Shown here piece after piece: positions 31,419 through 46,303 of a DNA stretch of 46,303 nucleotides. Each line of letters begins with the position of its first letter. Within the stretch, counting starts at the first letter, position 1. The notes below the pieces were generated by a model, which worked only from the letters and a program-made list of their open reading frames with translations, was not told the DNA's origin and did not search any database. This DNA is from Paraglaciecola polaris LMG 21857 (GTDB lineage: Bacteria > Pseudomonadota > Gammaproteobacteria > Enterobacterales > Alteromonadaceae). Made by a program: the position numbers and the translations under genes. The stretch spans positions 1 to 46,303 of the forward strand of contig NZ_BAER01000005.1 of assembly GCF_000315055.1 (NCBI RefSeq). Direction: 5' to 3'.

Positions 31419-33212
31419 TCAAGCAGGTTCGGGCAATAATGCGCCCTCGTCATCTTCAATATTGTCATCATCTGTAAGCAAGCTGGAATACACACCGTTC
31501 ATGGCGAGTAAGTCTTCGTGCCTGCCTTGTTCCACAATCTTACCTTGGTTTAGCACCAATATTTGATCGGAATGACGAATGGTGCTCAGGCGGTGCGCAA
31601 TGGCGATAACGGTCTTTTCTGCAAACAGGCGAGCAATGGCTTTTTGGATCAGATTTTCGGTAATGGAATCCACTGAGCTAGTGGCCTCGTCCAACATCAT
31701 AACTTGGCCACCTTGGGCCACGGCCCGAGCAAACGAGATAAGCTGAGCTTGGCCTGCTGACATATTACTGCCACTCTTTTTCAGCTCGAACTGATACTGA
31801 CCCGGTAAACCTAAAATGAAGTCATGGGCATAGACATATTGTGCGGCGTCGACCACGGCTTCGTCGCTGATTTGTGCGGCGCCAAGGGAAATATTAAAAT
31901 GGATGTTTTCCTCAAACAGAAACACGTCCTGCTGCATCAGGGAGAATAAATGAAGCATTGACGCTTTAGGAATACTCGACAGCTCAATGCCGTTGAGCAA
32001 AATGCTGCCTTCGTAATCCATGTAGGCTTTATTCATGATGCGTATGATTGTCGACTTGCCGGAGCCTGTTGTGCCAACTAACGCTAATTGCTCGCCCTTG
32101 TTTAGCGTAAACGACACATCATGCAAAATATAGGGACCTGTGTTGTTGTAACGAAAACGTACATTTTTGAATTCGAGCGAGTCGAAGTTAGCAAGTTTGT
32201 CTTTCAGGGATTCAGCGGGTAAAAGCGTTTTACCTTCTTCTTCGAGTTCTTGCACAAAAAGCTCTTCTATGTGCTCAAAGGCAGCAAAAGAACGCTGAAT
32301 GGCGGCGATCTGTGAGGTGAAATCGCGTAGTGGCACAAACACTTTTTCCAAGGTGTTAATGAAGGCGATAAGTACCCCAAGGCTCACTGCGCCCGCTAAA
32401 ACTTTACCTGATCCATACCAAATAATTAGTCCAATGGTGATGGTTGTGATGCCCGAGATGACCGAAAACAGAGTGGCATCGTATTTATTGGTTTTTAATT
32501 GTGCCCGCAGAAAATCTTCTGTGTAACCGTGATACTTGGCTTCTACTTCTTCTTCGGCACCATACAGTTGCACGGTTTTCACCCCGAGCAAACATTCTTG
32601 TAAAAAGCCGGTGCCTTTAGCTAAAGACGAGCGGGTAATGGCAAACATTTCACGCAGGCGATTACGCACATACTGGGTCAGCATTAACACCGGAGGAAAC
32701 ACCAGTAAGACTAACAAGGCTAATTGCCAGTTAATGAAAAACATAAAGATCAATACTGCCAAGGTGTTAATAGAGTCTTTGAGCAAACTCAATACGCCCA
32801 GTACGAAGGATTCACCTATGGCTTCAAGGTCACTGGTTAGGCGCGATAGGGTGACCCCAGTGGGAGTTTTGTCAAAATAGGTTCGGGGCAGTTTCAAAAT
32901 ACGTGCAAACAGGGCCATACGTATATCGAAAACGGCTTTCTGTCCGGTCTTACGCAAGCAATAAGTGTAAACGGCATCGGCAATATAATTGACAATTAAG
33001 ACCACGAGCATGACGGCAATCAGGGTCATCAAGCCAGTGTATTTCCCCGGCGTGAGGTGTTTGTCAATCACTTGAATAACCAGCCAAGGAAACAACAAGT
33101 TGGCGGCTACTGATATGGGCATCATCAACAACCCAATCACAGCGGTCTTTTTGTAACGCGAAGCGAAGTGATAAAAATGCTTGAGGTAGGCGAGATCCAA
33201 AGATTTAATCAT
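31419..33212 (-). CDS. ABC exporter subunit (MdlB-like)
   Basis: A 597-residue half-transporter: six membrane helices (residues 20-300) and an ATPase domain with Walker A GTTGSGKST, signature MSAGQAQLISFARAV and Walker B VMMLDEATSSVD. Its catalytic Glu is present, but the signature is altered from LSGGQ. Its start overlaps the partner gene end by four bases (ATGA), so the two are translated together and form a heterodimer. The export cargo is unknown; drugs, lipids or peptides are typical for MdlAB/MsbA relatives. The start MIKSLDLAYLKHFYHFASRY follows directly from the overlap. Confidence 0.9.
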   Translation of the reverse strand: MIKSLDLAYLKHFYHFASRYKKTAVIGLLMMPISVAANLLFPWLVIQVIDKHLTPGKYTGLMTLIAVMLVVLIVNYIADAVYTYCLRKTGQKAVFDIRMALFARILKLPRTYFDKTPTGVTLSRLTSDLEAIGESFVLGVLSLLKDSINTLAVLIFMFFINWQLALLVLLVFPPVLMLTQYVRNRLREMFAITRSSLAKGTGFLQECLLGVKTVQLYGAEEEVEAKYHGYTEDFLRAQLKTNKYDATLFSVISGITTITIGLIIWYGSGKVLAGAVSLGVLIAFINTLEKVFVPLRDFTSQIAAIQRSFAAFEHIEELFVQELEEEGKTLLPAESLKDKLANFDSLEFKNVRFRYNNTGPYILHDVSFTLNKGEQLALVGTTGSGKSTIIRIMNKAYMDYEGSILLNGIELSSIPKASMLHLFSLMQQDVFLFEENIHFNISLGAAQISDEAVVDAAQYVYAHDFILGLPGQYQFELKKSGSNMSAGQAQLISFARAVAQGGQVMMLDEATSSVDSITENLIQKAIARLFAEKTVIAIAHRLSTIRHSDQILVLNQGKIVEQGRHEDLLAMNGVYSSLLTDDDNIEDDEGALLPEPA

Positions 33213-34987
33213 GCGCTGGCCTCTGACTCATGTTGCTGTAATTCCCAGGTTTGACGGTAATAGCTTGACGATTCAAGCAGTTCGGCGTGGGTGCCACGGG
33301 CGATGATTTCCCCTTGTTCTAATACCAGAATTTTATCCATGTATTCCAGCGCGCTGACTCGGTGAGATACCACCAATAAACTTTGCTCCTGAATGCGATT
33401 GAATACACCTTTTAGAATGGTTCGCTCGGTTTCGTAATCCACCGCTGATAATACGTTGTCCATAATAATGAGGTCACTGGGTGTCAACAGCGCCCGGGCA
33501 ATACTCAGTCGTTGTTTTTGACCTCCGGATAACATGATACCTTTTTCACCTACCAGCGTTTGATCCCGAGCGCCAAAACGCTGTACATCTTCTTGTAGCT
33601 GACTAAGTTCAAGGACTTGGGCTACGTCGAGTTCATCGACGTCTTGGTTTTTTCGTTTGGCGCCAAACTTAACATTTTCAGAAATTGTAGCGGAAAACAA
33701 AAAAGGGTCTTGGGTTATAGTGCGAACATAGCTGCGCCAATCCTGACGCGATACTTGAGTAATATCTTTGTCCCCCCAAAAAATCTGCCCAGGGTCGAGA
33801 GACAAATGATGATTCAAACAATTCACCAAGGTACTTTTACCCGCACCTATGCTGCCTAAAACGCCAACTTTTTCCCCTGGTTCAATGGAGAAACTGAGAT
33901 CTTTGAGCACCATCTGCGATTGCTTGTCTTTGGCGTTTGGATAGCCGTAACTGAGATTTTGTACCGAGAGCGTTGAGCGGCGCAAAGCGGATTTTTCATT
34001 GTCGTCCATTCTCAACATATCTGTGCTTGGCACGGCGTTATTGAGAATATTCTGCACACTGTCAATGCTTATCATGCCCATTTGATACACAGTGACAATT
34101 CGTCCTAAGTGCATCAATGGAAGTGCCAAAAGAACCGAGTAAGACAAAAAGGCGGTAATTTCGCCAATTGTCAGCTTGGCCTGTAAAAGGTAATAACCAC
34201 CCAATCCCAAAATCAGTACCTTCATGAAATGGTTGGCATAATCTAGAATCGGCATGTAGATGGTTTGAATTTTGGCTATTTGCATGGTGCAATCGTAGAG
34301 TCGGCGATTGACCTTATTCACTTCATTTGTGACCCAGTCACCCATTTGTTGATTTTTAATTAAATCGATGCCTGATAAGTAGTTCATCAATTGCTCGGAC
34401 AAATCTTGCAAACGGTTTAAACGCTCAGCATGCAAGGCACGTAATTTTCTAAAACCAATGCGGAAAATAATAGCGGCAATGGCAATGGGGATCACTGAGT
34501 ACAGAGTTAATTCCGGTGATATTTTCCACATCCAAATCGGTGTAAGCGACAGGGCAAACAAAATATTAAACAGCTGTAAAAATCCAATTCCATAAAACAG
34601 ACGAATACCATTGAGGTCGTTATTAATAATGGATATCAGTTTACCGGAAGCAAATTTATCGTGAAAAGTTGAAGGCAGCCGGTTCAAACGATGAAAAACA
34701 TCATTCTTTAATGCCGCTTCCGTAATTCGCCCGGGGTTTAATGCGTACATGCGGGAAAGTATACGGACAACCACCATGACCACGGATAACGCAATTACCC
34801 ACTCTACGTTTTCAACCAATCCCGCTTTGGACTCAAGCGTTGACTGATTCAGTAAATCAACCGCCAGTTGGATGTAGCGCGGAATTTCCACTTGCAAGTA
34901 ATTCACGATAAAAATACACACAATCGCCAACAAATAAGAAAATTTGTTTAACAGTAAATAGTGCATGATAAATTTCGATTTAGTCAT
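33209..34987 (-). CDS. ABC exporter subunit (MdlA-like) with a non-canonical Walker B
   Basis: A 592-residue half-transporter with six hydrophobic segments and an ATPase domain: Walker A GSIGAGKST, signature LSGGQKQRLSIARAL and Walker B LIIMDNVLSAVD, where Asn replaces the catalytic Glu. With the partner's altered signature this gives one degenerate and one active ATP site, as known for heterodimeric exporters. ATG at 34987 is favoured, because it overlaps the stop of the small gene upstream (ATGACTAA), indicating translational coupling; a longer frame to 35041 would overlap that gene further without a ribosome-binding site. Confidence 0.88.
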   Translation of the reverse strand: MTKSKFIMHYLLLNKFSYLLAIVCIFIVNYLQVEIPRYIQLAVDLLNQSTLESKAGLVENVEWVIALSVVMVVVRILSRMYALNPGRITEAALKNDVFHRLNRLPSTFHDKFASGKLISIINNDLNGIRLFYGIGFLQLFNILFALSLTPIWMWKISPELTLYSVIPIAIAAIIFRIGFRKLRALHAERLNRLQDLSEQLMNYLSGIDLIKNQQMGDWVTNEVNKVNRRLYDCTMQIAKIQTIYMPILDYANHFMKVLILGLGGYYLLQAKLTIGEITAFLSYSVLLALPLMHLGRIVTVYQMGMISIDSVQNILNNAVPSTDMLRMDDNEKSALRRSTLSVQNLSYGYPNAKDKQSQMVLKDLSFSIEPGEKVGVLGSIGAGKSTLVNCLNHHLSLDPGQIFWGDKDITQVSRQDWRSYVRTITQDPFLFSATISENVKFGAKRKNQDVDELDVAQVLELSQLQEDVQRFGARDQTLVGEKGIMLSGGQKQRLSIARALLTPSDLIIMDNVLSAVDYETERTILKGVFNRIQEQSLLVVSHRVSALEYMDKILVLEQGEIIARGTHAELLESSSYYRQTWELQQHESEASA

Positions 34988-35192
34988 CGCGCTGAAAGCC
35001 TTTATTACAAATAGATGGATGCTGAACAAGACAAGCGTCAATAATTAGCTGTCTTGGGTCTCCTATTTCACTCAGTTGTTCGAGTAGCCATGCAGGTAGT
35101 CGAATGGGCTGGGTTTTGACGCCGGGTTTACGACCACAACCACTGCGTTTACCGCCGTGATCACAGCATTCTTTTTTGGGCTTATGGGGCAT
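34980..35192 (-). CDS. Small Cys-rich protein coupled to the ABC exporter
   Basis: A 70-residue basic protein. The N-terminal half, KKECCDHGGKRSGCGRKPG, has three Cys and a GGxRxGxGRKPG pattern that short DNA-binding-like proteins often carry before a helix pair; the second half is RLPAWLLEQLSEIGDPRQLIIDACL. It ends in an eight-base overlap with the start of the ABC gene, so it is the first gene of that operon. The function is unknown. A ribbon-helix-helix-like regulator or a metal-binding accessory protein are possibilities. The ribosome-binding site is weak. Confidence 0.6.
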   Translation of the reverse strand: MPHKPKKECCDHGGKRSGCGRKPGVKTQPIRLPAWLLEQLSEIGDPRQLIIDACLVQHPSICNKGFQRDD

Positions 35193-36234: not shown

Positions 36235-36271
36235 AGCTAGGCCTTCGGATCACACGATGAAGGCCTAAGCT
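36235..36271 (+). promoter_or_regulatory. Hairpin hiding the selU ribosome-binding site
   Basis: AGCTAGGCCTTC (36235-36246) pairs with GAAGGCCT-A-AGCT (36259-36271), 12 bp with one bulged base and a 12-base loop. The 3-prime arm contains the GAAGG ribosome-binding sequence and reaches the first base of the TTG start. Translation may thus depend on opening the stem. The pairing is certain; control is inferred. Confidence 0.6.
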
Positions 36272-37362
36272 TGCAATCCAATGCTGACTATAGAAGCTTA
36301 TTTTTAAACGACATTCCGATGATGGATGTCAGAGCGCCGATTGAATTTAACAAAGGTGCTTTTCCGTATGCTGTAAATCACCCGCTGATGAACGATAGTG
36401 AGCGTGCAGCCGTGGGCACCTGTTACAAGAAACAAGGCCATGAGGCGGCTTTGGCGTTAGGTCACAGCTTGGTAAAGGGCGCCGTGAAAGAGCAGCGCAT
36501 TCACGCGTGGCAGTCATTTCATACACAAAACCCCAATGGGCTTTTGTATTGCTTTCGTGGTGGCCTTCGGTCCCGAGTGACCCAAAGGTGGCTAGCGGAA
36601 GCGGGCATAGATATGTCGTTTGTCGAAGGGGGCTACAAGGCGATGCGGCGGTTTTTGCTGGCGCAACTGCATGCACGAATCGCTCAAGGAAACATACTGC
36701 TGCTTTCAGGTGCCACGGGTACAGGCAAAACGGACGTTATTCATGATTGGCCCCAGTCAATCGATTTTGAAGGCTTAGCCAATCATCGTGGCAGCGCATT
36801 TGGTAGTACTGGCAGTAAACAGCCAAGCCAAATTGATTTTGAAAATGCATGGTCGATAAACTGGCTAAAACACACCAGCCTTGGCAATGCCCCGATCTTA
36901 TTTGAAGATGAATCACGTATGATTGGCCGCATCGCGTTGTTGCCTGAGTATTTAGCGCTGAGCAAGCAGGCACAGTTCGTATTATTGAAAGCTCCGTTAC
37001 AGGAGCGTATCGAGCGAATTCGTAACGATTATTTCGTAGATGCTTATCAATCACGGCTTAGTCAAGGTGACGAAGCGGCCATTGCGTTCCTTGATGATTT
37101 TATCCGGGGCGCTTTGACGCGTATAAAAACTCGCCTAGGGGGGGATCGTTATAAAAAGCTCACCACGTTACTTGATCACGCGGTAACACAACTGATAAAT
37201 CAGGGCAGTTGGAGTAAGTTTGACGATATCATTGCCGTGCTGCTGAGTGATTATTACGACCCGATGTACGCGTATCAATTGACCGCAAAAGCCGAGCACA
37301 AAGTATTTGAAGGTAGCCATCAAGAGATCCTTGATTGGTTAACGCAGTGCACACCAGCTTAA
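36271..37362 (+). CDS. selU: tRNA 2-selenouridine synthase
   Basis: A 363-residue enzyme (also called MnmH or YbbB) that replaces sulfur by selenium in wobble 2-thiouridine of certain tRNAs, using selenophosphate. The N-terminal rhodanese domain has the catalytic Cys94 in LLYCFRGGLRS, and the C-terminal half has a P-loop GATGTGKT (residues 147-154). DVRAPIEFNKGAFPYAVNHPLM is characteristic. The TTG start fits the GAAGG before it. It is followed by the selenophosphate synthase gene that feeds it. Confidence 0.95.
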   Translation: MQSNADYRSLFLNDIPMMDVRAPIEFNKGAFPYAVNHPLMNDSERAAVGTCYKKQGHEAALALGHSLVKGAVKEQRIHAWQSFHTQNPNGLLYCFRGGLRSRVTQRWLAEAGIDMSFVEGGYKAMRRFLLAQLHARIAQGNILLLSGATGTGKTDVIHDWPQSIDFEGLANHRGSAFGSTGSKQPSQIDFENAWSINWLKHTSLGNAPILFEDESRMIGRIALLPEYLALSKQAQFVLLKAPLQERIERIRNDYFVDAYQSRLSQGDEAAIAFLDDFIRGALTRIKTRLGGDRYKKLTTLLDHAVTQLINQGSWSKFDDIIAVLLSDYYDPMYAYQLTAKAEHKVFEGSHQEILDWLTQCTPA

Positions 37363-37584
37363 AGCAATGAAGTGTGCCCTGTGTCGTCATTCTCTTTCTT
37401 TGCCGCTTTTACGGGCAGTTGAGTCACCACTTTGGGTACTCATATTTTTATTGAATAGGGACGTGGGTTTGTTCGGTCTAATGCCTTGATTGACAACATT
37501 TTATATAGAAAATTAGGCTCATTCCTATTGGCATTTTTTGGTCGGTTACAAAATCGGTTTTCATACTTTAATAAGGCAAGCTTC

Positions 37585-39729
37585 TTGAACGAACGAGATT
37601 TGGTATTTATTGGCGGCGGTCATACCCATGCATTGGTGCTCAGAATGTTGGCCATGAAACCCATTCCTAACGTACGACTCACGCTCATTTCAGACACTCG
37701 TCTTACGCCATACTCAGGCATGCTACCGGGTTTTATTAGTGGGCATTATTCTCAAGCACAAACCCATATTGATCTGAATAAGCTCGCTCAAGCTGGGCAT
37801 ATCCGTTTTATTCATGGCCGTGTTACGGGCCTTGATGTTGAACGTAAGCGTATTCAAGTACATAACCATCCTGATATTGAATACGACAAGGTTTCAGTTA
37901 ATGTTGGTTCGACGCCTAACCTGACTCTGCCCGGCGCCAAAGAATTTGCGGTTGGGGTGAAACCGGTAAGTCAGCTGACGGCCACATGGGCGCATCTACT
38001 GGCCCATGACTACCAAGGTAAGACGCCCCACTGGGCGATTGTGGGAGCTGGTGCCGCGGGTGTTGAAATTGCGTTGGCGATTGCGCATCGTTTTGCAAAG
38101 CAACAAAAACCGATTCAATTGTCTTTAGTTCAGTCAGGCTCAGCTTTGCTGGCAGGTTATCAAAGGGGAGTACAAAATCGTGTCCGTAAAGCGCTGAAGT
38201 ACTTCAACGTGACCTTGGTGAATAATTTTCGTGTAGTTAAAGTAGAGCAACATCAATTAGTTGCGGACGATAATCAAACGCTTGCCATTGATAAGTCGAT
38301 TTGGTGCACCCCAGCGACGGCACCTACATGGCCTAAAGAAGCCGGGCTGGCAACGGATGAACAGGGATTCATTGCAGTAAACGCCTATCTGCAAAGCACC
38401 TCCCATACTGATGTTTTTGCTGCCGGCGATGTGGCGAGCATGACGTTCTCGCCGCGCCCTAAAGCGGGCGTTTATGCAGTGCGCTCAGCCCCTTTTTTAA
38501 CCAAGAATTTACGGGCGGCTTTTGGTCTCAGCAACTTCACGCCCACGAAATTGCAAACAACTTTTTTATCACTCATTTCCCTTGGCAATCGCACGGCGGC
38601 CGGGCAAAAAATGGGCATTAGTTTTTCTGGTGGATGGGTATGGCGCTGGAAAAACCACATCGATTTAACCTTTATGAATTTGTTTCAAAAACATTTACCG
38701 ACAATGGACAGCCACATGAATGAACCCATGCATTGCGCTGGCTGTGGCAGCAAACTGGGTCCCCAATTGTTGCAAGATTCGCTACAAGCATTACCCATTT
38801 ATAAACAAGCAAACTTGGCCATTAATTTGGCTAAAACTGAAGATGCAGCGGTTGCTATTTACCGCAAAGAACATAGTGTATATCAGAGCATTGATGGCTT
38901 TCGTGCATTTACCGACGATCTTTACCGTCTTGGTATTGTGACGACTCATCATGGGATTAATGATTTGTACGCCATGGGCATTCAGCCGACTAGCGCCCAA
39001 GTCTGGGCCAATATCTGCTTTGCTCATCCCCGTTTGAGCAAACGAGATTTTCAGCAGCTGATGAGCGGTATAACAGAGTCTCTGATTCATCATGAAACGA
39101 CGCTGGTGGGTGGCCACAGCACGCAAGGCAATGAAACCCATATAGGCATAGTGGTAAATGGAGAGCAGAGTAACGTTTGGTCCAAGAACAATCTTAAACC
39201 CGGTGATTGCTTGTTACTTAATCGGCCCCTGGGCTCAGGTGTTATTCTCGCAGCCGACATGCAAGGCAAAGCAGATGCGGAAATAGTTGACCAACTTTGG
39301 ACACATCTATTGACGTCTAACCGTGCCTTTTTTAAGGCACTGCGCGCTTTGCATGTTGACGGTGCAACCGACGTTAGTGGTTTTGGGTTAGTGGGCCACT
39401 GCTTGGAAATGGTTGAAGGCTCAGATTTACAAATAAACATCGATAGCCGCAAAGTGCCTATTTTAGCTGGTGCGCTAGAGCTGTCGCATGCGGGTATTGG
39501 TTCAAGTTTGTTACCTCAGTTATTGCCACTAAAAAGCCGCTGTAATATAAGCAAAGAAGCATACAGCCAAGTTATTGATTTGCTCTTTGACCCACAAACT
39601 AACGGCGGCTTGCTGGTATCGGTATCACCCGAGGTGGCAACACAGCTGTTGAAAATAGACGGCGTTGTCAAGATTGGCGAGGTGACAGCCCGTATGCTTG
39701 CCAGCGAAAAGGAAGTCGCTATTCATTAA
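37585..39729 (+). CDS. selD: Fused NADH-dehydrogenase-like oxidoreductase and selenide, water dikinase
   Basis: A 714-residue fusion. The N-terminal half is an FAD/NAD(P) oxidoreductase (LVFIGGGHTHALVLRML; second nucleotide fold HWAIVGAGAAGVEIALAIA; SHTDVFAAGDVASM). The C-terminal half is SelD, which makes selenophosphate from selenide and ATP, starting at MHCAGCGSKLGPQLL with the catalytic Cys387 and Lys390, then FTDDLYRLGIVTTHHGINDLYAMG and NGGLLVSV. The second Cys of the E. coli motif is Ser. TTG at 37585 with AAGG upstream is chosen; a longer frame opens at 37486 but its extra 33 residues resemble nothing and lack a ribosome-binding site. The flavin part may deliver reduced selenium to the kinase part. 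No selA or selB lies near, so selU is the visible consumer. Confidence 0.92.
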   Translation: MNERDLVFIGGGHTHALVLRMLAMKPIPNVRLTLISDTRLTPYSGMLPGFISGHYSQAQTHIDLNKLAQAGHIRFIHGRVTGLDVERKRIQVHNHPDIEYDKVSVNVGSTPNLTLPGAKEFAVGVKPVSQLTATWAHLLAHDYQGKTPHWAIVGAGAAGVEIALAIAHRFAKQQKPIQLSLVQSGSALLAGYQRGVQNRVRKALKYFNVTLVNNFRVVKVEQHQLVADDNQTLAIDKSIWCTPATAPTWPKEAGLATDEQGFIAVNAYLQSTSHTDVFAAGDVASMTFSPRPKAGVYAVRSAPFLTKNLRAAFGLSNFTPTKLQTTFLSLISLGNRTAAGQKMGISFSGGWVWRWKNHIDLTFMNLFQKHLPTMDSHMNEPMHCAGCGSKLGPQLLQDSLQALPIYKQANLAINLAKTEDAAVAIYRKEHSVYQSIDGFRAFTDDLYRLGIVTTHHGINDLYAMGIQPTSAQVWANICFAHPRLSKRDFQQLMSGITESLIHHETTLVGGHSTQGNETHIGIVVNGEQSNVWSKNNLKPGDCLLLNRPLGSGVILAADMQGKADAEIVDQLWTHLLTSNRAFFKALRALHVDGATDVSGFGLVGHCLEMVEGSDLQINIDSRKVPILAGALELSHAGIGSSLLPQLLPLKSRCNISKEAYSQVIDLLFDPQTNGGLLVSVSPEVATQLLKIDGVVKIGEVTARMLASEKEVAIH

Positions 39730-39821: not shown

Positions 39822-41255
39822 TCATTTTTCGCTAAAAGTAAATTTAGAAAGTAGTGTATTTTGAATAAACTGATGATTGAGCTTGGCGTTTAATTTCATG
39901 ATAGCAAGCTCTTCTCGAAATACATTGATACGCGCGGTCATCGCTTTTAGCTCGGCCTGGAACGCGTCTACTTCCCGAGTATTAAGCATAAAAAAGTCGC
40001 TTGAACCGAATTCGAACTGCCGCTGTTCTTGCTCAAAAAGCTTACGAGATAGCACTACCTGTTTTTTCTGCATGTCATGCAATCGCTTGGCGTAGGTGAG
40101 ATTAATGAGGCGCTCTTTTAATTTGGCATCAATAGACCCTTGTAAGGCATTGGTTTTCTGCTCTAGAGCATTAATCTCGAACTGTGTTCTGCTCTTTTTG
40201 GCTTTTGCTTGCGAGCGTTCAAAAGGCACTGAAAAATATAACCCTATTTTAGCTTCAGTGTCTTGCAGTGACGTGGGGCCTGACCCTATGTCCCTTGCGA
40301 GTTTAGCTTCTACATCTAGCTTGGGTAAAAGCGCAACTTTAGCTAGGCGCATTTTTTGTTTTAACTCCTGCATTTCATAGGCTTTAGCCGCTAAAGCTGG
40401 ATGGCTTGTTGATACGCCTCCGTGGATGACACTCTTGAAAGCATTTGGCCATACCATGCCTGTTGTACTGTCTGTTGTATTGTGTGATGGGGCGTTCTGG
40501 ATATCATCAACTGAGGCATTGCTATGCATGTAGTAACGCAGTTTCTGTATGTTAGCCTGCACGTTTCGCTCTGCTGAGAGAAAGGTTGATTGGCGCTCGA
40601 GTAAACGAGTTTCAAATTCGAGCAGCTCAATTTCAGCAATATCCCCCTCTGCTACGCGCCTTTTCATGCCTTCCTGCCTATTGATACCGACTTCAACCAG
40701 TTGCTGTATTTTGTTGAAATAGCTAACAGACTCTATCCAGTCGAGATAGGCTAAAATTGCCGCGTAGTAAAACTCACTTTGGGCAAGTTTTGCTTCTTCA
40801 TTCCACATTTTATATTTGAGACGTGCACTGGCCATAGCGGTGCGCTTTTTGTCTGTGTCTCGCCCTTGTAACAGCGATAGTTTTACGCCTACAGATGCTT
40901 CGCCACCGGATAACGTGGCGTATTCTTGCTCATAAACGGGAAAGTCGCCATGGGAAATACGGTACTCAGAGAATATCTCGGCGTTATAGGCTTCAAGAGG
41001 TTTCGAGAATTTTTGAGAAGCCTGTAATCCATCGTAATACCCCGTGACCCGGGAGAAGCTGTTGTGATCCAGCTTGGCATCATAGGCTCCATCGGCGTAT
41101 TGGATATCTGCACCGTATTGACCAGTAGTCGCGTCGATGGCCAATATTTCAGGGTGGTTATTGGCTACAAGCGTCAAATATTCGTGCAAGTTGAATGCTT
41201 TAGATGGATTTGAAACGCTCAATAGTGCTGCAAAAAAAGCCAGAGATTTGTACAT
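39822..41255 (-). CDS. TolC-family outer-membrane efflux protein
   Basis: A 477-residue outer-membrane channel subunit with a signal peptide (ending PSKAF). It has the long coiled-coil-forming repeats of the family (ATTGQYGADIQYADGAYDAKLDHNS and a C-terminal REVDAFQAELKAMTARINVFREELAIMKLNAKLNHQF). TolC proteins trimerise to form a tunnel from the periplasm to the outside. ATG at 41255 overlaps the TGA of the HlyD gene by one base, so it is the third gene in an operon. Spacing of the two halves fits TolC, though the fit to any one member is loose. Confidence 0.85.
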   Translation of the reverse strand: MYKSLAFFAALLSVSNPSKAFNLHEYLTLVANNHPEILAIDATTGQYGADIQYADGAYDAKLDHNSFSRVTGYYDGLQASQKFSKPLEAYNAEIFSEYRISHGDFPVYEQEYATLSGGEASVGVKLSLLQGRDTDKKRTAMASARLKYKMWNEEAKLAQSEFYYAAILAYLDWIESVSYFNKIQQLVEVGINRQEGMKRRVAEGDIAEIELLEFETRLLERQSTFLSAERNVQANIQKLRYYMHSNASVDDIQNAPSHNTTDSTTGMVWPNAFKSVIHGGVSTSHPALAAKAYEMQELKQKMRLAKVALLPKLDVEAKLARDIGSGPTSLQDTEAKIGLYFSVPFERSQAKAKKSRTQFEINALEQKTNALQGSIDAKLKERLINLTYAKRLHDMQKKQVVLSRKLFEQEQRQFEFGSSDFFMLNTREVDAFQAELKAMTARINVFREELAIMKLNAKLNHQFIQNTLLSKFTFSEK

Positions 41256-42283
41256 CAGGCAGAGCCCTCTTGGGTCTCTTGCACGCGCACCGGCGGGAAG
41301 TTGTTCAATTGTCGCCACAATTCGTAACCCAACCTCACTTCTTCGAGCAGTATCCAGGCTCTTACGCGGCTCCCCAAGCGCGCACTTTCATGATCGGGCC
41401 AAGGGACAGTGGTGTTGACTGGTGCGACCCAAACGGTGAATAAGCCGAATTGATCCGCGACGGGCTCCACGAAAGACACCACACCCTCAAATGTGCCCAC
41501 TGACATGCCAGGCCAACCACTGAATTGGAACGTTGGCCAGCCTTCGAACTGTATTCTGACTTTTTTGCCTTTGGTGGCCAGTGCTGCATCAAGACCGTTA
41601 ATTTTAATACTGATTTGGCGCTCAACATTGGCGGGTACAAACCAGCCTAATACACTTCCGGCGGTGACGTAAGTTGCGCTTCCACCAGATTGAAGCCTAA
41701 CGACTGTGCCATCCATTGGTGCATATTTAGTACGGGTTTCTTGACGGGCCAGTGTCATTTTTAGAGTATCTAGATCTTCTTCGGTTTTTGATGCTTCGGC
41801 TTTTAGCTTTTCAAGTGCTATTTCGACTGCTTCAACTTCCTTTTGCGATACGAGCCCTTCCTGAAGTAGCTTTCGCTGGCGTGAAAGATTACTCAGTGCG
41901 TTTTGCACTGAAAGTTTGTTTGATACATAACGTTGATTGGCTGCGACTTGTTGCGAGCGCAGTTTTTCTAACCTGTCGGAATCTACGTCAACCAAAGTGA
42001 CGATAGGCTGGCCTTTAACGACATTATCGCCTTCTCTGACGTGCCAAGTTTCAATCTGGCCATTGAGTAAAGCCGAGATAGGCTGAATACGGTACAAAGG
42101 GTCGGGGGAGTTAACCGAGCCAGTACCATAGGCGGTTTGTACCCAAGGCGTAAATGTTAAAAGCAGCACGGCTGCAACGACTAAGGTCACCACAAGCCAG
42201 ATAATCGTTTTGTGAGTTTTGGGCACTTTTAAACGTTGTAAGGTTTTCATTTCCCCCATGAAGTCGTTATGCGCGTTACTCAT
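41255..42283 (-). CDS. HlyD-family membrane-fusion protein
   Basis: A 342-residue periplasmic adaptor anchored by one N-terminal helix (TIIWLVVTLVVAAVLLLTF, about residues 28-46). It has a split lipoyl-like domain (QIETWHVREGDNVVKGQPIVTLVD and TKYAPMDGTVVRLQSG) around a long coiled coil (about residues 100-190, rich in Leu, Glu, Lys, Gln), then a beta-barrel domain. Adaptors of this type join an inner-membrane exporter to TolC. The start at 42283 has CAGGAGAAC upstream and overlaps the end of the ABC gene (ATGAGTAA); longer frames to 42352 run back into that gene. In this operon it should dock with the motif-less ABC protein. Confidence 0.9.
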   Translation of the reverse strand: MSNAHNDFMGEMKTLQRLKVPKTHKTIIWLVVTLVVAAVLLLTFTPWVQTAYGTGSVNSPDPLYRIQPISALLNGQIETWHVREGDNVVKGQPIVTLVDVDSDRLEKLRSQQVAANQRYVSNKLSVQNALSNLSRQRKLLQEGLVSQKEVEAVEIALEKLKAEASKTEEDLDTLKMTLARQETRTKYAPMDGTVVRLQSGGSATYVTAGSVLGWFVPANVERQISIKINGLDAALATKGKKVRIQFEGWPTFQFSGWPGMSVGTFEGVVSFVEPVADQFGLFTVWVAPVNTTVPWPDHESARLGSRVRAWILLEEVRLGYELWRQLNNFPPVRVQETQEGSA

Positions 42284-43955
42284 GACTGTTCTCCTGAAGT
42301 GGAGCGGAACTGAGTGGCTGCTCTTTTTTGCTTTGTAGCGCAATAGTGCCATCTAAAAAATCGTTAGACGGCGCATTTGAAAAATACAATACAGTCAGGT
42401 CGGTGGCTTCAATGACTCTTAATATTCTTTCACGTCTGGAGGTCGGGATAGCATCAAAATGCTGATTAATGACCAATACTTTGGGTTTGGACAGCATCAC
42501 TACGACTAACTTAAGCAAAATAAATTCAAGGGGCTGTAACGGCGTTCCGACCGCGGATATAGAGGTTTTCAGCTTATGCGGAAGTGCGTTAATTACCACC
42601 GTCAGACCGACTTTTTCAAGGGTGTCGTTTATTTCATTGGTAGAAACATCCGGCGCGCACATTTTAATGTACTCTTCGATGGTGCATTCGATGATTAATG
42701 AGCGGTCTAGTACAAACACGGCTTGGCGCAGATCGTAGGTGTCGTAATCAGACAGGTCGTTGTTATCAAGGTTAATCCAGCCAGATGCGGGCGTTTCGTA
42801 ACGCTTGAGTAAATTGACTATGGTGCGCTGGGTCCAATTAGACTGAGTCGTGACAAAGTATTTATTGCCCTGAGCGATGTTTTTGTTGATAAGGCACGAC
42901 TCATCCTTGCGCTTAATAATGACATTATTGAAATTCAGTGAACCGCCGACAGGAGCAGGTTTAGATGTTTGCTCATATGCTTCTTGGGGCATGCTAATAA
43001 CGCCACCGATTTTATCTGCTGTGCCATACAACTCGTAATACAATTTTAGGTAATGGCTGAAGTTAGAAAGCCCTAAAAATACCGCGGCCATAATCAATTC
43101 AGCCGCAACAAGTTGGCCAATAGATAACTGCCCGTCGATGACCAGCCAACCACCTAAACCAAGCAAAGCAGAGCTTGCCAGTGCGTAAAGCACCAGAAAC
43201 ATAACAACTTGTTTAAAGGTGAATGAAAAATGTTTGGCGTGGATGTCATTGTATTCTGAAACGTAGCGTTCGGTTTTCTTGCCTGCGTAATCGAATTGAG
43301 AAGACGATTTTAAGAAATCGTTAGCCGATGCTAAGTTACTCAACCATTTCGCCGTAGAGTACTTCGACTCAGACAGGCGCACTGCTGTAATCTTTGCTTG
43401 GGTCGACCAAAGTCGCCAAATGATATACATGATCAATATCACGCACAGGTTAAATGCCAGTAAAAATGGGTGATAAAACGAGACGAGGGTAAAACCTACA
43501 ATCATCTGTAATATTAAGGCAATACCGTCAACCATCAAGCTAGGGACATTCTTTTGTAATGTCATGATGTCGAAGTAACGGTGGGTAATTGACGTGTTTT
43601 GGTTGCCCTCAAAGTAACTATGTGGGGCCAGTATAGTGCGCAGGCTTAGATCAGCGACGAGGCGCGCATAAATACGCCGTTCGTAATATTCCATAACCCG
43701 CATGCGCAGCGCCGCAAAGCAGCCAGAAAGCAGCAAGGTACTAAACAAAACAATGGCGAGAGTCGCCACTGCACGGGTTGAGGCGATGTTTGCGATAGTA
43801 TTAATCAGTGTTTGTACGGCAATAGGTACTGCTAAGGTAAGCAGCCCAATGACAACGCTATAAGCGATGACTACGGCGAAAAACGAACGTTCAGGCTTTA
43901 ACAAAGCAAACAACGTTTGGCGCAAGTTAACTAGGTCAATATTTTTGGAGGACAT
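42276..43955 (-). CDS. ABC exporter-like protein with a fully degenerate ATPase domain
   Basis: A 559-residue protein with six hydrophobic segments (residues 20-300) in the type-I exporter pattern and a C-terminal domain (about 338-540) that keeps the length and strand order of an ATPase domain but no catalytic motif. Walker A (around 368-378) reads TTQSNWTQRT; the Q-loop position has VLDRS; the signature position has TPLQPLE in place of LSGGQ; Walker B (493-498) reads VLVINQ, lacking both acids; the D-loop has DAIP; the switch His position has Asn (FSNAPS). The frame is intact and the gene overlaps hlyD, so it is translated. No C39 peptidase domain precedes the helices. It may be a pseudo-ATPase acting as a scaffold or passive channel, or partnering with a different ATPase. 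It is not an ordinary pseudogene. Confidence 0.85.
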   Translation of the reverse strand: MSSKNIDLVNLRQTLFALLKPERSFFAVVIAYSVVIGLLTLAVPIAVQTLINTIANIASTRAVATLAIVLFSTLLLSGCFAALRMRVMEYYERRIYARLVADLSLRTILAPHSYFEGNQNTSITHRYFDIMTLQKNVPSLMVDGIALILQMIVGFTLVSFYHPFLLAFNLCVILIMYIIWRLWSTQAKITAVRLSESKYSTAKWLSNLASANDFLKSSSQFDYAGKKTERYVSEYNDIHAKHFSFTFKQVVMFLVLYALASSALLGLGGWLVIDGQLSIGQLVAAELIMAAVFLGLSNFSHYLKLYYELYGTADKIGGVISMPQEAYEQTSKPAPVGGSLNFNNVIIKRKDESCLINKNIAQGNKYFVTTQSNWTQRTIVNLLKRYETPASGWINLDNNDLSDYDTYDLRQAVFVLDRSLIIECTIEEYIKMCAPDVSTNEINDTLEKVGLTVVINALPHKLKTSISAVGTPLQPLEFILLKLVVVMLSKPKVLVINQHFDAIPTSRRERILRVIEATDLTVLYFSNAPSNDFLDGTIALQSKKEQPLSSAPLQENSHE

Positions 43956-44261: not shown

Positions 44262-45647
44262 TTATTCGTGATCATGATCAGATTCAGCAATGCCCAGCCA
44301 AGTGACGCTTTGTGGGGCGAAGTCGAGTTCGATGTCACCAGTAATGGTTAACGTTTCAAGGTCAATTTGTAGGATATGCTGTGCAATCGGGTCAGATATG
44401 TAAACGTCATGACCATTTTGCGCCACTGTCATGCTAAACGACATGCCTTCTGGCATGGTGGATACATCCTCTTCGGTGATATCCAAACGATCGTGCAGTT
44501 CCCAGTGCAACCCGCCGTCTTCTTCATGGGCTTCTAGCACATTCAAAAAACCTTGATTGTCGAGGACTAAAAAGGCGTCGCCTTCGTGGGAAAACGCATA
44601 AGATACCGGGTTGGCTCCGCTTACAGGTTGCCACGGCAATGCTTCCATTGTGCCCAGTGCTGGGTTGACGTCGATTAGAATTGCTTCACCACCACCGTGA
44701 CCAGACGCAATACCGATCAATGAATCGCTTTCTTTGTGGCCGTATAGCGTGCCAATACGTGAACCGTCTAATACGTCGATGTTGGCTATTTTTGCTGCTT
44801 CGTATTCGTCGTCATGCTCATGGGCCACAAGTACACCGTCTGTACAGCCGAATACCACGTAATCTTCGTTTTGTGCAGCCCCGTGCAAGTCAGGGCATAG
44901 CACGTCTAGTACTTGCTCTTGCTCGTAAACATCGTCATGTAAGTGATATACACCGACTTGGTCGGGCAAAACTTTTGCTACAGAAGTATTTTCAGTGTCA
45001 TCCCGGCGAACGGTGGCGAGTAAATATTCACCACGAGGCTCAGCTACACCGTGCATATTAATGGTGTAATTTAAAGTGGGTAGTGGGTCGGCTTGGCTGC
45101 TGATTTGCGTGTCGGTGACGACATTCACTGAGGCTGGCGTGCCTGCATCTGCATTGCCATCAAAGAAGACGGCCATTTGACCATCATGACTTAAAATATG
45201 AGTAGGGCTGCTGCCTGTGACTTCAAAGTCACTCATGGCAGGGCTTTGCTCGTAATCATGTAAATGTGCAGTGTGATCTTCGCGCCACATCCCGCCATCA
45301 ATAAAGCCCACATAGTCTTGTGCTCGGCTTGCGATAACTGCAAAACGATAATCTGCTGATGATGTTAAGGTGTTAGATGTGTGAATTAAGATGAAGGTGT
45401 CTAGTTGGTCACCATCGTCTAAATCAAATATTGTGGCCACGTTACTTTCAGCGGATAACACAGCCAGTCGGCCCATTGAATCAATCGTATATTCATCGTC
45501 AGTACTGTCATCATCATGGTCGTGTTCATCCTCTGTCACTTCGATAGGATCTTTTTCGATGAGAGTGGTTTCGGCGTCACCGCAACCCGTTAACAATATT
45601 GCGCCAATAGTCGCCGCGAGAAGGTTAAATTTATGTGTGTTAGTCAT
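44262..45647 (-). CDS. AztD-like zinc-binding lipoprotein
   Basis: A 461-residue periplasmic protein with lipobox AILLTGC (Cys22), an acidic/His N-terminus (EDEHDHDDDSTDDE), and repeated strands of a beta-propeller (VATIFDLDDGD, SPTHILSHDGQMAVFFDG, SYAFSHEGDAFLVLDNQGFLNVLEAHEEDGG). HDHE ends the protein. AztD is a periplasmic zinc chaperone of this fold in Paracoccus, so zinc delivery is the likely job. AAAAAGG precedes the ATG at 45647, chosen over an upstream frame lacking such a site. The TonB receptor gene ends 34 bases upstream, so the two are one operon. Confidence 0.78.
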   Translation of the reverse strand: MTNTHKFNLLAATIGAILLTGCGDAETTLIEKDPIEVTEDEHDHDDDSTDDEYTIDSMGRLAVLSAESNVATIFDLDDGDQLDTFILIHTSNTLTSSADYRFAVIASRAQDYVGFIDGGMWREDHTAHLHDYEQSPAMSDFEVTGSSPTHILSHDGQMAVFFDGNADAGTPASVNVVTDTQISSQADPLPTLNYTINMHGVAEPRGEYLLATVRRDDTENTSVAKVLPDQVGVYHLHDDVYEQEQVLDVLCPDLHGAAQNEDYVVFGCTDGVLVAHEHDDEYEAAKIANIDVLDGSRIGTLYGHKESDSLIGIASGHGGGEAILIDVNPALGTMEALPWQPVSGANPVSYAFSHEGDAFLVLDNQGFLNVLEAHEEDGGLHWELHDRLDITEEDVSTMPEGMSFSMTVAQNGHDVYISDPIAQHILQIDLETLTITGDIELDFAPQSVTWLGIAESDHDHE

Positions 45648-45681
45648 TGTATATTCCTTTTTATTTAGATGAATTTTTGAA

Positions 45682-46303
45682 CTAAAAACTGCCTCTGACG
45701 CCAACTGAAATGCTGCGTCCCGGGCGTGGTGCAATGTCTTTTAGAAATGAGGTGTGTACTCTGGCTTCTGTGTCAGTCAGATTGCTGCCTTTTAAGAAAA
45801 CAGCAATATCCTGATTAGTTACCGGTAGGTCATAAGACACACTTGCATCAACCAGGGTGTAGCCACCGGTCGTTGTTTCGTCTGAAGAAACACGATCTTG
45901 TTCTTGGTAGCGAGTGATATCGAGATGGGCGCTTAAGCGGGCGGCTTCATAGCTAAACTGCGAGCCGAAACGCAGTGGTGGAGTGCGCGGTAAATCGCCG
46001 CCGTCTTTTAAGCGTGCGCGAACATAGTCAGAGAATAAGGTTGCTTTGAACGTGTCGCTGGCTTGCCATGCAATTTGCGCTTCGAAGCCGTGTAATATGA
46101 CGTCGTCAGTTTGAAAAAGATAAACGGGTAACTCATCTGTGTGCTCATCTTCCTCTACGCTGCTTTCTTCATGTTCGTGCTCATGGTCGTGACTACTTTC
46201 GGCGAATAATCCGGTGGATGTTTGGTAGTAGTAATTATCGACTTGGTTGTAGAATGCATTGAGTACAAAACCAATGTCGCCTTGGGTTTTACGCAAGGTT
46301 AAA
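45682..46303 (-). CDS. TonB-dependent receptor, C-terminal part (zinc-type, cut by the window edge)
   Basis: About 206 residues of the barrel of a TonB-dependent receptor, open at the right edge of the window. An extracellular loop carries a His/Glu-rich run (SSHDHEHEHEESSVEEDEH), as in ZnuD-like zinc receptors, and the protein ends in PGRSISVGVRGSF with terminal Phe, the usual outer-membrane insertion signal. DLPRTPPLRFGSQFSY and GGYTLVDASVSYDLP are typical receptor barrel blocks. Its downstream neighbour is the His-rich AztD-like lipoprotein, supporting a zinc uptake operon. The promoter and any Zur site are outside the window. Confidence 0.88.
   Translation of the reverse strand, partial: LTLRKTQGDIGFVLNAFYNQVDNYYYQTSTGLFAESSHDHEHEHEESSVEEDEHTDELPVYLFQTDDVILHGFEAQIAWQASDTFKATLFSDYVRARLKDGGDLPRTPPLRFGSQFSYEAARLSAHLDITRYQEQDRVSSDETTTGGYTLVDASVSYDLPVTNQDIAVFLKGSNLTDTEARVHTSFLKDIAPRPGRSISVGVRGSF

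Follow-up and report, generated by a model that had tools for sequence, protein, structure and literature searches.

Gene content of the locus

ATP hydrolysis is the defining property of ATP-binding cassette (ABC) transporters. The window analysed here, the whole 46,303-nucleotide stretch of contig NZ_BAER01000005.1 from Paraglaciecola polaris LMG 21857, carries on its minus strand an operon for an ABC exporter protein, an HlyD-type adaptor and a TolC-type outer-membrane protein (Table 1), and the ABC protein has lost the motifs of its ATPase. The three open reading frames (ORFs) overlap in the order ABC-HlyD-TolC and are translationally coupled, as the first-pass annotation of this DNA had proposed: the ABC stop and the HlyD start at 42283 overlap by 8 bp (ATGAGTAA), and the HlyD stop and the TolC start at 41255 by 1 bp (TGATG). 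That the exporter membrane domain is kept was borne out by a Pfam match of the ABC protein to PF00664 (ABC_membrane, 42.1 bits; cut-off 28); PF00005 (ABC_tran) reached just 13.3 bits, under its cut-off of 25. The adaptor gave lipoyl/HlyD-type Pfam matches, with HlyD_3 barely above cut-off (22.5 against 22.2), and the TolC-family protein gave an OEP match of 71.2 bits.

Table 1. Features of the operon in window coordinates (dN/dS, ratio of non-synonymous to synonymous substitution rates).
Feature	Position	Strand	Basis
Pseudo-ATPase ABC exporter subunit, 559 aa	42276..43955	-	ORF, Pfam, homologues, Foldseek
HlyD/membrane fusion protein (MFP)-family periplasmic adaptor, 342 aa	41255..42283	-	Start overlaps ABC stop; Pfam, NCBIfam
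TolC-family outer-membrane protein	39822..41255	-	PF02321, 71.2 bits
Transmembrane domain, residues ~1-322, better conserved than ATPase domain	42990..43955	-	Pfam, entropy, dN/dS, AlphaFold2
Degenerate nucleotide-binding domain, residues 335-541, ABC-domain fold still predicted	42333..42953	-	Pfam, AlphaFold2, Foldseek
Codon of E286 (glutamate of transmembrane helix 6)	43098..43100	-	Alignment of family with ordinary ABC exporters
Former Walker A (TTQSNWTQR), no special conservation	42825..42851	-	Alignment, conservation by segment
Former ABC signature (PLQPLEF), among top 5% conserved segments of the domain	42522..42542	-	Alignment, conservation by segment
Former Walker B and D-loop (VLVINQHFDAIP)	42444..42479	-	Alignment, conservation by segment
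Former H-loop (TVLYFSNA), Asn for His	42372..42395	-	Alignment, conservation by segment
RLS-type TolC-docking tip motif of adaptor (R135, L139, S146)	41846..41881	-	Pattern in adaptor; motif from PMC3391258 (excerpt)

Loss of the ATPase motifs

Alignment with 11 ordinary ABC exporters revealed that Walker A, the Q-loop glutamine, the signature, the Walker B aspartate, the catalytic glutamate and the H-loop histidine are all replaced, with TQSNWTQRT at the position of Walker A, LQPLE at the signature, VLVINQHFDAIP at Walker B and the D-loop and YFSNA at the H-loop. None of the five functional elements of an ATP site (Walker A, Walker B Asp, catalytic Glu, signature and H-loop His) is therefore left, and the frame stays open, as noticed before for the window, with no internal stops there or in the close homologues. 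By established ABC biochemistry, a subunit without Walker A and signature would supply neither half of a composite ATP site, so that ATP-driven cycling is very unlikely; judged from its sequence, the ABC subunit has probably lost normal binding and hydrolysis of ATP.

Close homologues and selection

The protein was compared within a set of 30 close sequences, all distinct and including that of the window, with identities down to 49%. By record title or group code these are Alteromonadaceae, some being titled only Alteromonadaceae or Gammaproteobacteria bacterium and one (L041) Endozoicomonas. A GK[ST] in the Walker A region, the Walker B aspartate, the catalytic glutamate and the H-loop histidine were each found in 0/30, so the intact motifs in close relatives that would have spoken for a decaying gene were not encountered; the family members with all five elements, described below, are distant. 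To the question of the first-pass annotation whether the same substitutions are conserved, the answer is that they largely are, with NQHFDAIP in 28/30 and PLQPLE in 25/30 sequences in place of the catalytic motifs, and L016, the most distant of the 30, has different letters (TQFFDLLT, PLSPGS) and is equally dead. Ranked by conservation, the segments covering signature, D-loop and H-loop fall within the top 5.0%, 4.5% and 3.0% of the dead domain, respectively; new residues are thus being maintained in part of the dead site.

Mean entropy was 0.76 bits in the transmembrane domain (TMD) and 1.40 bits in the nucleotide-binding domain (NBD), and the TMD is thus strongly conserved. For the least saturated pair, the window and L021, the Nei-Gojobori method gave dN/dS values of 0.019 for the TMD, 0.050 for the NBD, 0.019 for HlyD and 0.053 for TolC (synonymous divergence dS 0.75-1.6 by region), and L022 against L023 gave 0.012, 0.034, 0.019 and 0.062 in the same order (dS ~2-3). 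Values near 1, the other expected sign of decay, were not obtained for the NBD, for which dN/dS was 0.032-0.050 in the four of 12 pairs that were computable, the remaining pairs being saturated. Selection is almost absent over the final 18 residues of the ABC protein (dN/dS 0.5-1.1 where computable). The order ABC-HlyD-TolC is kept in 26/26 loci, and the start codons, picked by script for HlyD and TolC in the relatives, lie between 14 bases before and 20 after the preceding stop. A search with the ABC alignment (E<=1e-70) was positive in 7/394 genomes of the order, all of them from one family.

The wider family

Further members were sought through the HlyD partner (E<=1e-35), which avoids selecting on the state of the ATPase and by which divergent members can be missed. 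Matches were obtained in 14/369 genomes of the class and 11/398 of the phylum, as well as in 2/250 of the class of genome G860, 60/161 of the order of G670 and 4/160 of the order of G1085; in the order of G670, the ABC gene was read in 18 of the 60 genomes (L079 and 17 loci chosen by us across the score range). A family ABC gene adjoins the HlyD gene in each of the 37 loci read beyond the close relatives. Its frame is split in L135, the L138 and L144 loci are truncated by contig ends, and L075, L076 and L078 have gatA/gatB-type genes downstream instead of TolC (Pfam check for L075).

The five elements were scored in 51 ABC proteins, comprising those of the 37 wider loci and 14 of the 30 close sequences. 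All five were present in three (L144, L147 and L148, in which the Q-loop glutamine is absent too in this alignment), Walker A was present in 14, and 37 had no Walker A. L079 keeps Walker A, Asp and Glu without signature and His, and in L075, L076 and L078 the Walker A stretch is missing in the alignment. Judged by motifs, the family is thus graded: some members have an almost complete ATPase, some Walker A only and some no catalytic motif. Two peculiarities were seen on the way: in L147 (2152-5067), HlyD and TolC matches lie in one 971-aa frame beside the five-element ABC gene, a possible adaptor-channel fusion or sequencing artefact, and L079, L133, L134, L136, L137, L139 and L140 (689-708 aa) have about 150 extra N-terminal residues, which gave no Pfam match in L079, the sole one scanned.

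Searching plasmids with the ABC protein (tblastn) led to 22 records (15 from Sphingomonadales genera, 7 from Bacteroidota genera), with pNL2 of Novosphingobium aromaticivorans DSM 12444 among the Sphingomonadales matches. Six of the 22 were read, and four Riemerella matches (21% identity) were left out. The four Sphingomonadales loci read are Walker-A-less and have adjoining HlyD and TolC genes; in those of Persicobacter and Aureibacter, both partner genes are likewise present and the ATP site is degenerate in part or entirely. RefSeq labels several members 'ABC transporter ATP-binding protein' despite the lack of Walker A (e.g. L159, L160), and the family thus bears on annotation. On Sphingobium plasmid pHAL16 (L160:1362-3914), a DUF2309 gene, which we take to be of the DabA type, precedes the operon, and a carbonic anhydrase gene follows about 4 kb downstream.

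In a tree of the TMD alone, the family formed one group against the 11 references (support 99/99). The 22-row clade that contains the window protein is wholly Walker-A-less (100/100 on the TMD alone, 95/100 on TMD plus HlyD) and spans Gammaproteobacteria and a second class of the phylum (L091-L095), probably Alphaproteobacteria to judge by the named Sphingomonadales plasmids. With TMD plus HlyD, a Walker-A-less group of six sits with Walker-A-bearing rows in a 21-row group (97/94), its exact place being unsupported (82/65). Walker-A-less rows thus appear in several places of the tree, yet a single loss of Walker A may suffice, as grouping these rows into one clade is not rejected by the approximately unbiased (AU) test (p 0.197, 0.087). 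Both trees omit the near-copies L021, L022, L073 and L076, and that of TMD plus HlyD also 8/11 references.

A family signature in the membrane domain

In transmembrane helix 6 (TM6), a glutamate (E286 in the window protein) was found in 53/53 aligned family members and in 0/41 ordinary ABC exporters. By set, it occurs in 51/51, 4/4 (Sphingomonadales plasmids) and 2/2 family proteins as opposed to 0/11 and 0/30 ordinary exporters, the last set being 30 of 33 listed PF00664 matches from eight genomes that also carry the family, all with intact Walker A, Asp-Glu and His. The AlphaFold2 (AF2) model, whose confidence is low there, places E286 at the eighth position of helix 279-308 (TM6). Further polar or charged positions distinguish the family from ordinary exporters: Q150 in TM3 (51/52 against 3/37), H162 (48/52 against 1/41), K198 (50/53 against 0/41), H242 (48/53 against 0/40) and Q249 (51/53 against 4/40).

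The adaptor carries a RxxxLxxxxxxS pattern, with R and L in 18/18 sequences and Ser (12), Ala (5) or Thr (1) at the third position. An RLS-type motif of the adaptor tip binds TolC according to an excerpt of PMC3391258.

Structure model and related transporters

The AF2 model, built from 26 sequences, had a mean predicted local distance difference test score (pLDDT) of 71 and NBD blocks of 75-88. The best Foldseek matches, all at E 1e-15 to 1e-17, were to TM287/288, PCAT1 and, foremost, the HlyB chain of the HlyB/D complex (E 4.7e-17); the query TM-scores were mostly 0.5-0.6 and the root-mean-square deviations 13-19, so that the placement of the domains is unreliable. With an ABC_membrane domain and a fused ABC-domain fold, the protein has the make-up of an ABC exporter (type IV fold), and the operon that of type I secretion with ABC, MFP and outer-membrane factor (OMF) genes. 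The NCBIfam models TIGR01846, TIGR03375 and TIGR01842 scored 121.2, 75.1 and 63.9 bits, none passing its cut-off (725.55, 693.1 and 510.15). HlyB/HlyD/TolC (TIGR01846; PDB 7sgr, 8dck) has the same gene set, exporter fold and RLS-type adaptor tip, and its HlyB gave both the top NCBIfam score and the best Foldseek match. The earlier description as type-I-secretion-like therefore stands for the architecture, but no secreted cargo was found in the flanks examined. Unlike HlyB, the window protein has no ATPase motifs; at 559 aa it has no room for a C39-like N-terminal domain, and it has Glu in TM6 where HlyB and two references resembling type I secretion systems have Asn.

Two other systems are relevant for the question of how such a protein could work. 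SbmA, as described in an excerpt of PMC13316013, is an ABC-related transporter that has no NBD and uses a glutamate ladder for its proton drive; part of this ladder is also present in YddA, a full-length ABC relative. SbmA/BacA (the SLiPT family) and the window protein share an ABC-exporter-type membrane domain thought to be ATP-independent, carboxylates in the TMD and full-length ABC relatives in which an ATPase domain is retained. A Pfam scan (E<=1) of the window protein gave no SbmA_BacA or ABC_membrane_2 match, and an NBD fold is predicted for it, although SLiPTs are defined by having none. For LmrA, the excerpt of PMC6155054 reports that E314 in TM6, near the amide face of TM3, is required for ion-coupled drug transport, which resembles the TM6 glutamate and TM3 glutamine of the family. 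LmrA differs in keeping working NBDs, and it is not known to have an adaptor or outer-membrane partner.

A possible ion-driven exporter and its alternatives

At the level of sequence, the operon is conserved, the catalytic motifs are lost, the genes are under purifying selection, the TM6 glutamate is invariant and a TolC-docking motif is present. By analogy with SbmA/BacA or LmrA, we propose that an ABC exporter lineage gave up ATP hydrolysis, kept its adaptor and outer-membrane channel and became an ion-driven tripartite exporter, a reading to which we give about an even chance. The inner-membrane ABC-fold protein, presumably a homodimer, would join the HlyD-type adaptor and the TolC-type channel and, without hydrolysing ATP, would export a small-molecule or peptide cargo. 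E286 and the polar set (Q150 in TM3, H162 and others) would couple an H+ or Na+ gradient to alternating access, and the dead ATPase domain would be retained as a structural element for dimerisation and coupling. Given the glutamate of LmrA near TM3 amides and the proton drive of SbmA, the family would fit the same path, as the glutamate is present in all members examined and the full ATPase set in few. More tentatively, and with somewhat less than even confidence, ABC exporters may here have given rise for a second time, independently, to a secondary (ion-driven) transporter, in this case within an envelope-spanning HlyD-TolC machine, with living intermediates and with a TM6 carboxylate that preceded the loss of the ATPase.

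Several observations weigh against an ion-driven exporter. The TM6 glutamate is also present in the three five-element members, so that on its own it is no sign that ATP has been dispensed with, and within a TM helix a single carboxylate stands out, with no ladder as in SbmA. The likening of E286 to LmrA E314 is tentative, and the AF2 model is modest (mean pLDDT as given above), with 42-69 for residues 281-310 (TM6). The window protein keeps a degenerate NBD, whereas SLiPTs lost theirs together with the coupling helices and take up peptides with no HlyD/TolC involved; LmrA without NBDs gave, according to the excerpt of PMC6155054, no current under membrane potential and ATP alone, although earlier work is cited there for ion conductance of this form. 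Not all of the dead site is held equally: among the 30 sequences, 11.1% (Q-loop) and 20.4% (Walker B) of segments are at least as conserved, which is moderate, and the former Walker A is average (53.5%). The dN/dS of the ATPase domain is 2-3 times that of the membrane domain, and the operon is patchy within the genus, being found in the window's own genome and 7/21 congeners.

In a passive gated conduit, the ABC-fold dimer would not itself couple any energy and would let a solute equilibrate or pass one on from another inner-membrane transporter to the HlyD-TolC duct. Such a conduit would agree with a missing motor beside a retained adaptor tip motif and channel gene, and nothing in the data shows energy coupling; we consider it unlikely, as the family-specific charged and polar TMD residues and the strongly conserved TMD suggest more than a pore. 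Alternatively, the dead subunit might borrow its ATPase from an intact ABC exporter whose gene lies elsewhere, the two forming a heterodimer or being joined in a larger assembly of the HlyB/HlyD kind. In favour of this, further ABC exporters of the genome do have intact motifs, the model matches the HlyB/D complex best, and a single degenerate site is a familiar feature of heterodimeric exporters (PMC7756269, excerpt). TM287/288, TmrAB and BmrCD share non-consensus catalytic residues with the window protein but keep one good ATP site, while the window subunit lacks both site halves; having neither Walker A nor signature, it would leave a heterodimer with two defective composite sites. As a partner with a consensus ATP site, no ABC gene was found in the operon and no family paralogue in the genome, whose other ABC exporters reach <=55 bits and 18-23% identity (nor was there a second HlyD-family match at E<=1e-35), which leaves an unrelated partner and makes such pairing distinctly unlikely. 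Binding of ATP or another nucleotide through new contacts, as a switch, would fit the several replaced motifs that are conserved rather than random and the ABC domain that AF2 still yields; it appears improbable in view of the average conservation of the former Walker A and of the three members that align with this stretch missing.

Still less credit can be given to an envelope sensor or assembly factor that is not a transporter: no cargo gene recurs in the neighbourhoods examined, and against this stands the fixed association with an adaptor gene and mostly also a TolC gene. A decaying gene, finally, might be suspected from the loss of every catalytic motif and the nearly free last 18 residues, and was rejected as next to incredible because frames are open, dN/dS is 0.03-0.05 in the dead domain and the replacements are shared across the 30 sequences. 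Together with the constant gene order, this upholds the view of the first-pass annotation that a selected pseudo-ATPase is present.

Exporters of the ABC-MFP-OMF kind are known as such; a description of this family was not found in aimed searches of openly licensed PubMed Central papers, judged by titles and the starts of abstracts. Its members, which keep the adaptor and differ in how much of the motor is left, from almost all of it to none, are natural variants that make it testable what an ABC membrane domain needs its ATPase for. If ion coupling holds true, the family would add another example of an ABC exporter that became a secondary transporter.

Neighbouring genes

No cargo gene adjoins the operon, as had been remarked before. 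Besides a divergent LysR gene upstream of the ABC gene in 22/26 loci (e.g. L024:5013-5930), no neighbour cluster occurs in more than 7/26 loci (flanks up to 6 kb; cargo elsewhere in the genome was not sought), and the neighbours of distant members (by Pfam PEP carboxylase, a GTP_EFTU-domain protein, UvrA, PNPase, GatA/GatB, MMPL and others) have no cargo in common. The stretch directly upstream in the window (44262-46302) holds an AztD-like gene (110 bits, cut-off 400) and the last part of a TonB-dependent receptor gene, both with His/Asp/Glu-rich stretches, which suggests metal uptake; as functional partners of the operon they were rejected, since they do not recur in the same flanks of the 26 related loci.

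The two LysR proteins scanned had NhaR as best model (187 and 189 bits, cut-off 219), and NhaR-like genes (E<=1e-30) were surveyed in nine genomes besides the window's. In 5/5 genomes of genus code g40, probably Alteromonas, the sole NhaR-like gene is divergent to this operon, with nhaA elsewhere in four and not found in G256. The NhaR-like gene adjoins nhaA in the window's genome, G002, G007 and G022; in G013 it lies elsewhere and no nhaA was found. This may be taken as a weak hint at Na+/pH-linked control of the operon.

An overlapping pair of ABC exporter genes, a candidate source of a partner for the dead subunit, is located at 31419-35041, more than 7 kb from the operon and outside the 6-kb flanks of the synteny comparison; the protein of 33209-35041 has Asn for the catalytic Glu (MDNVLSAVD), as in one half of a heterodimeric exporter. 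Closer to the operon, the gene at 37486-39729 combines a pyridine-nucleotide-disulphide oxidoreductase domain with AIRS domains, a fusion which is presumably SelD-like, and adjoins a rhodanese/P-loop gene at 36271-37362 that we take to be of the SelU type.

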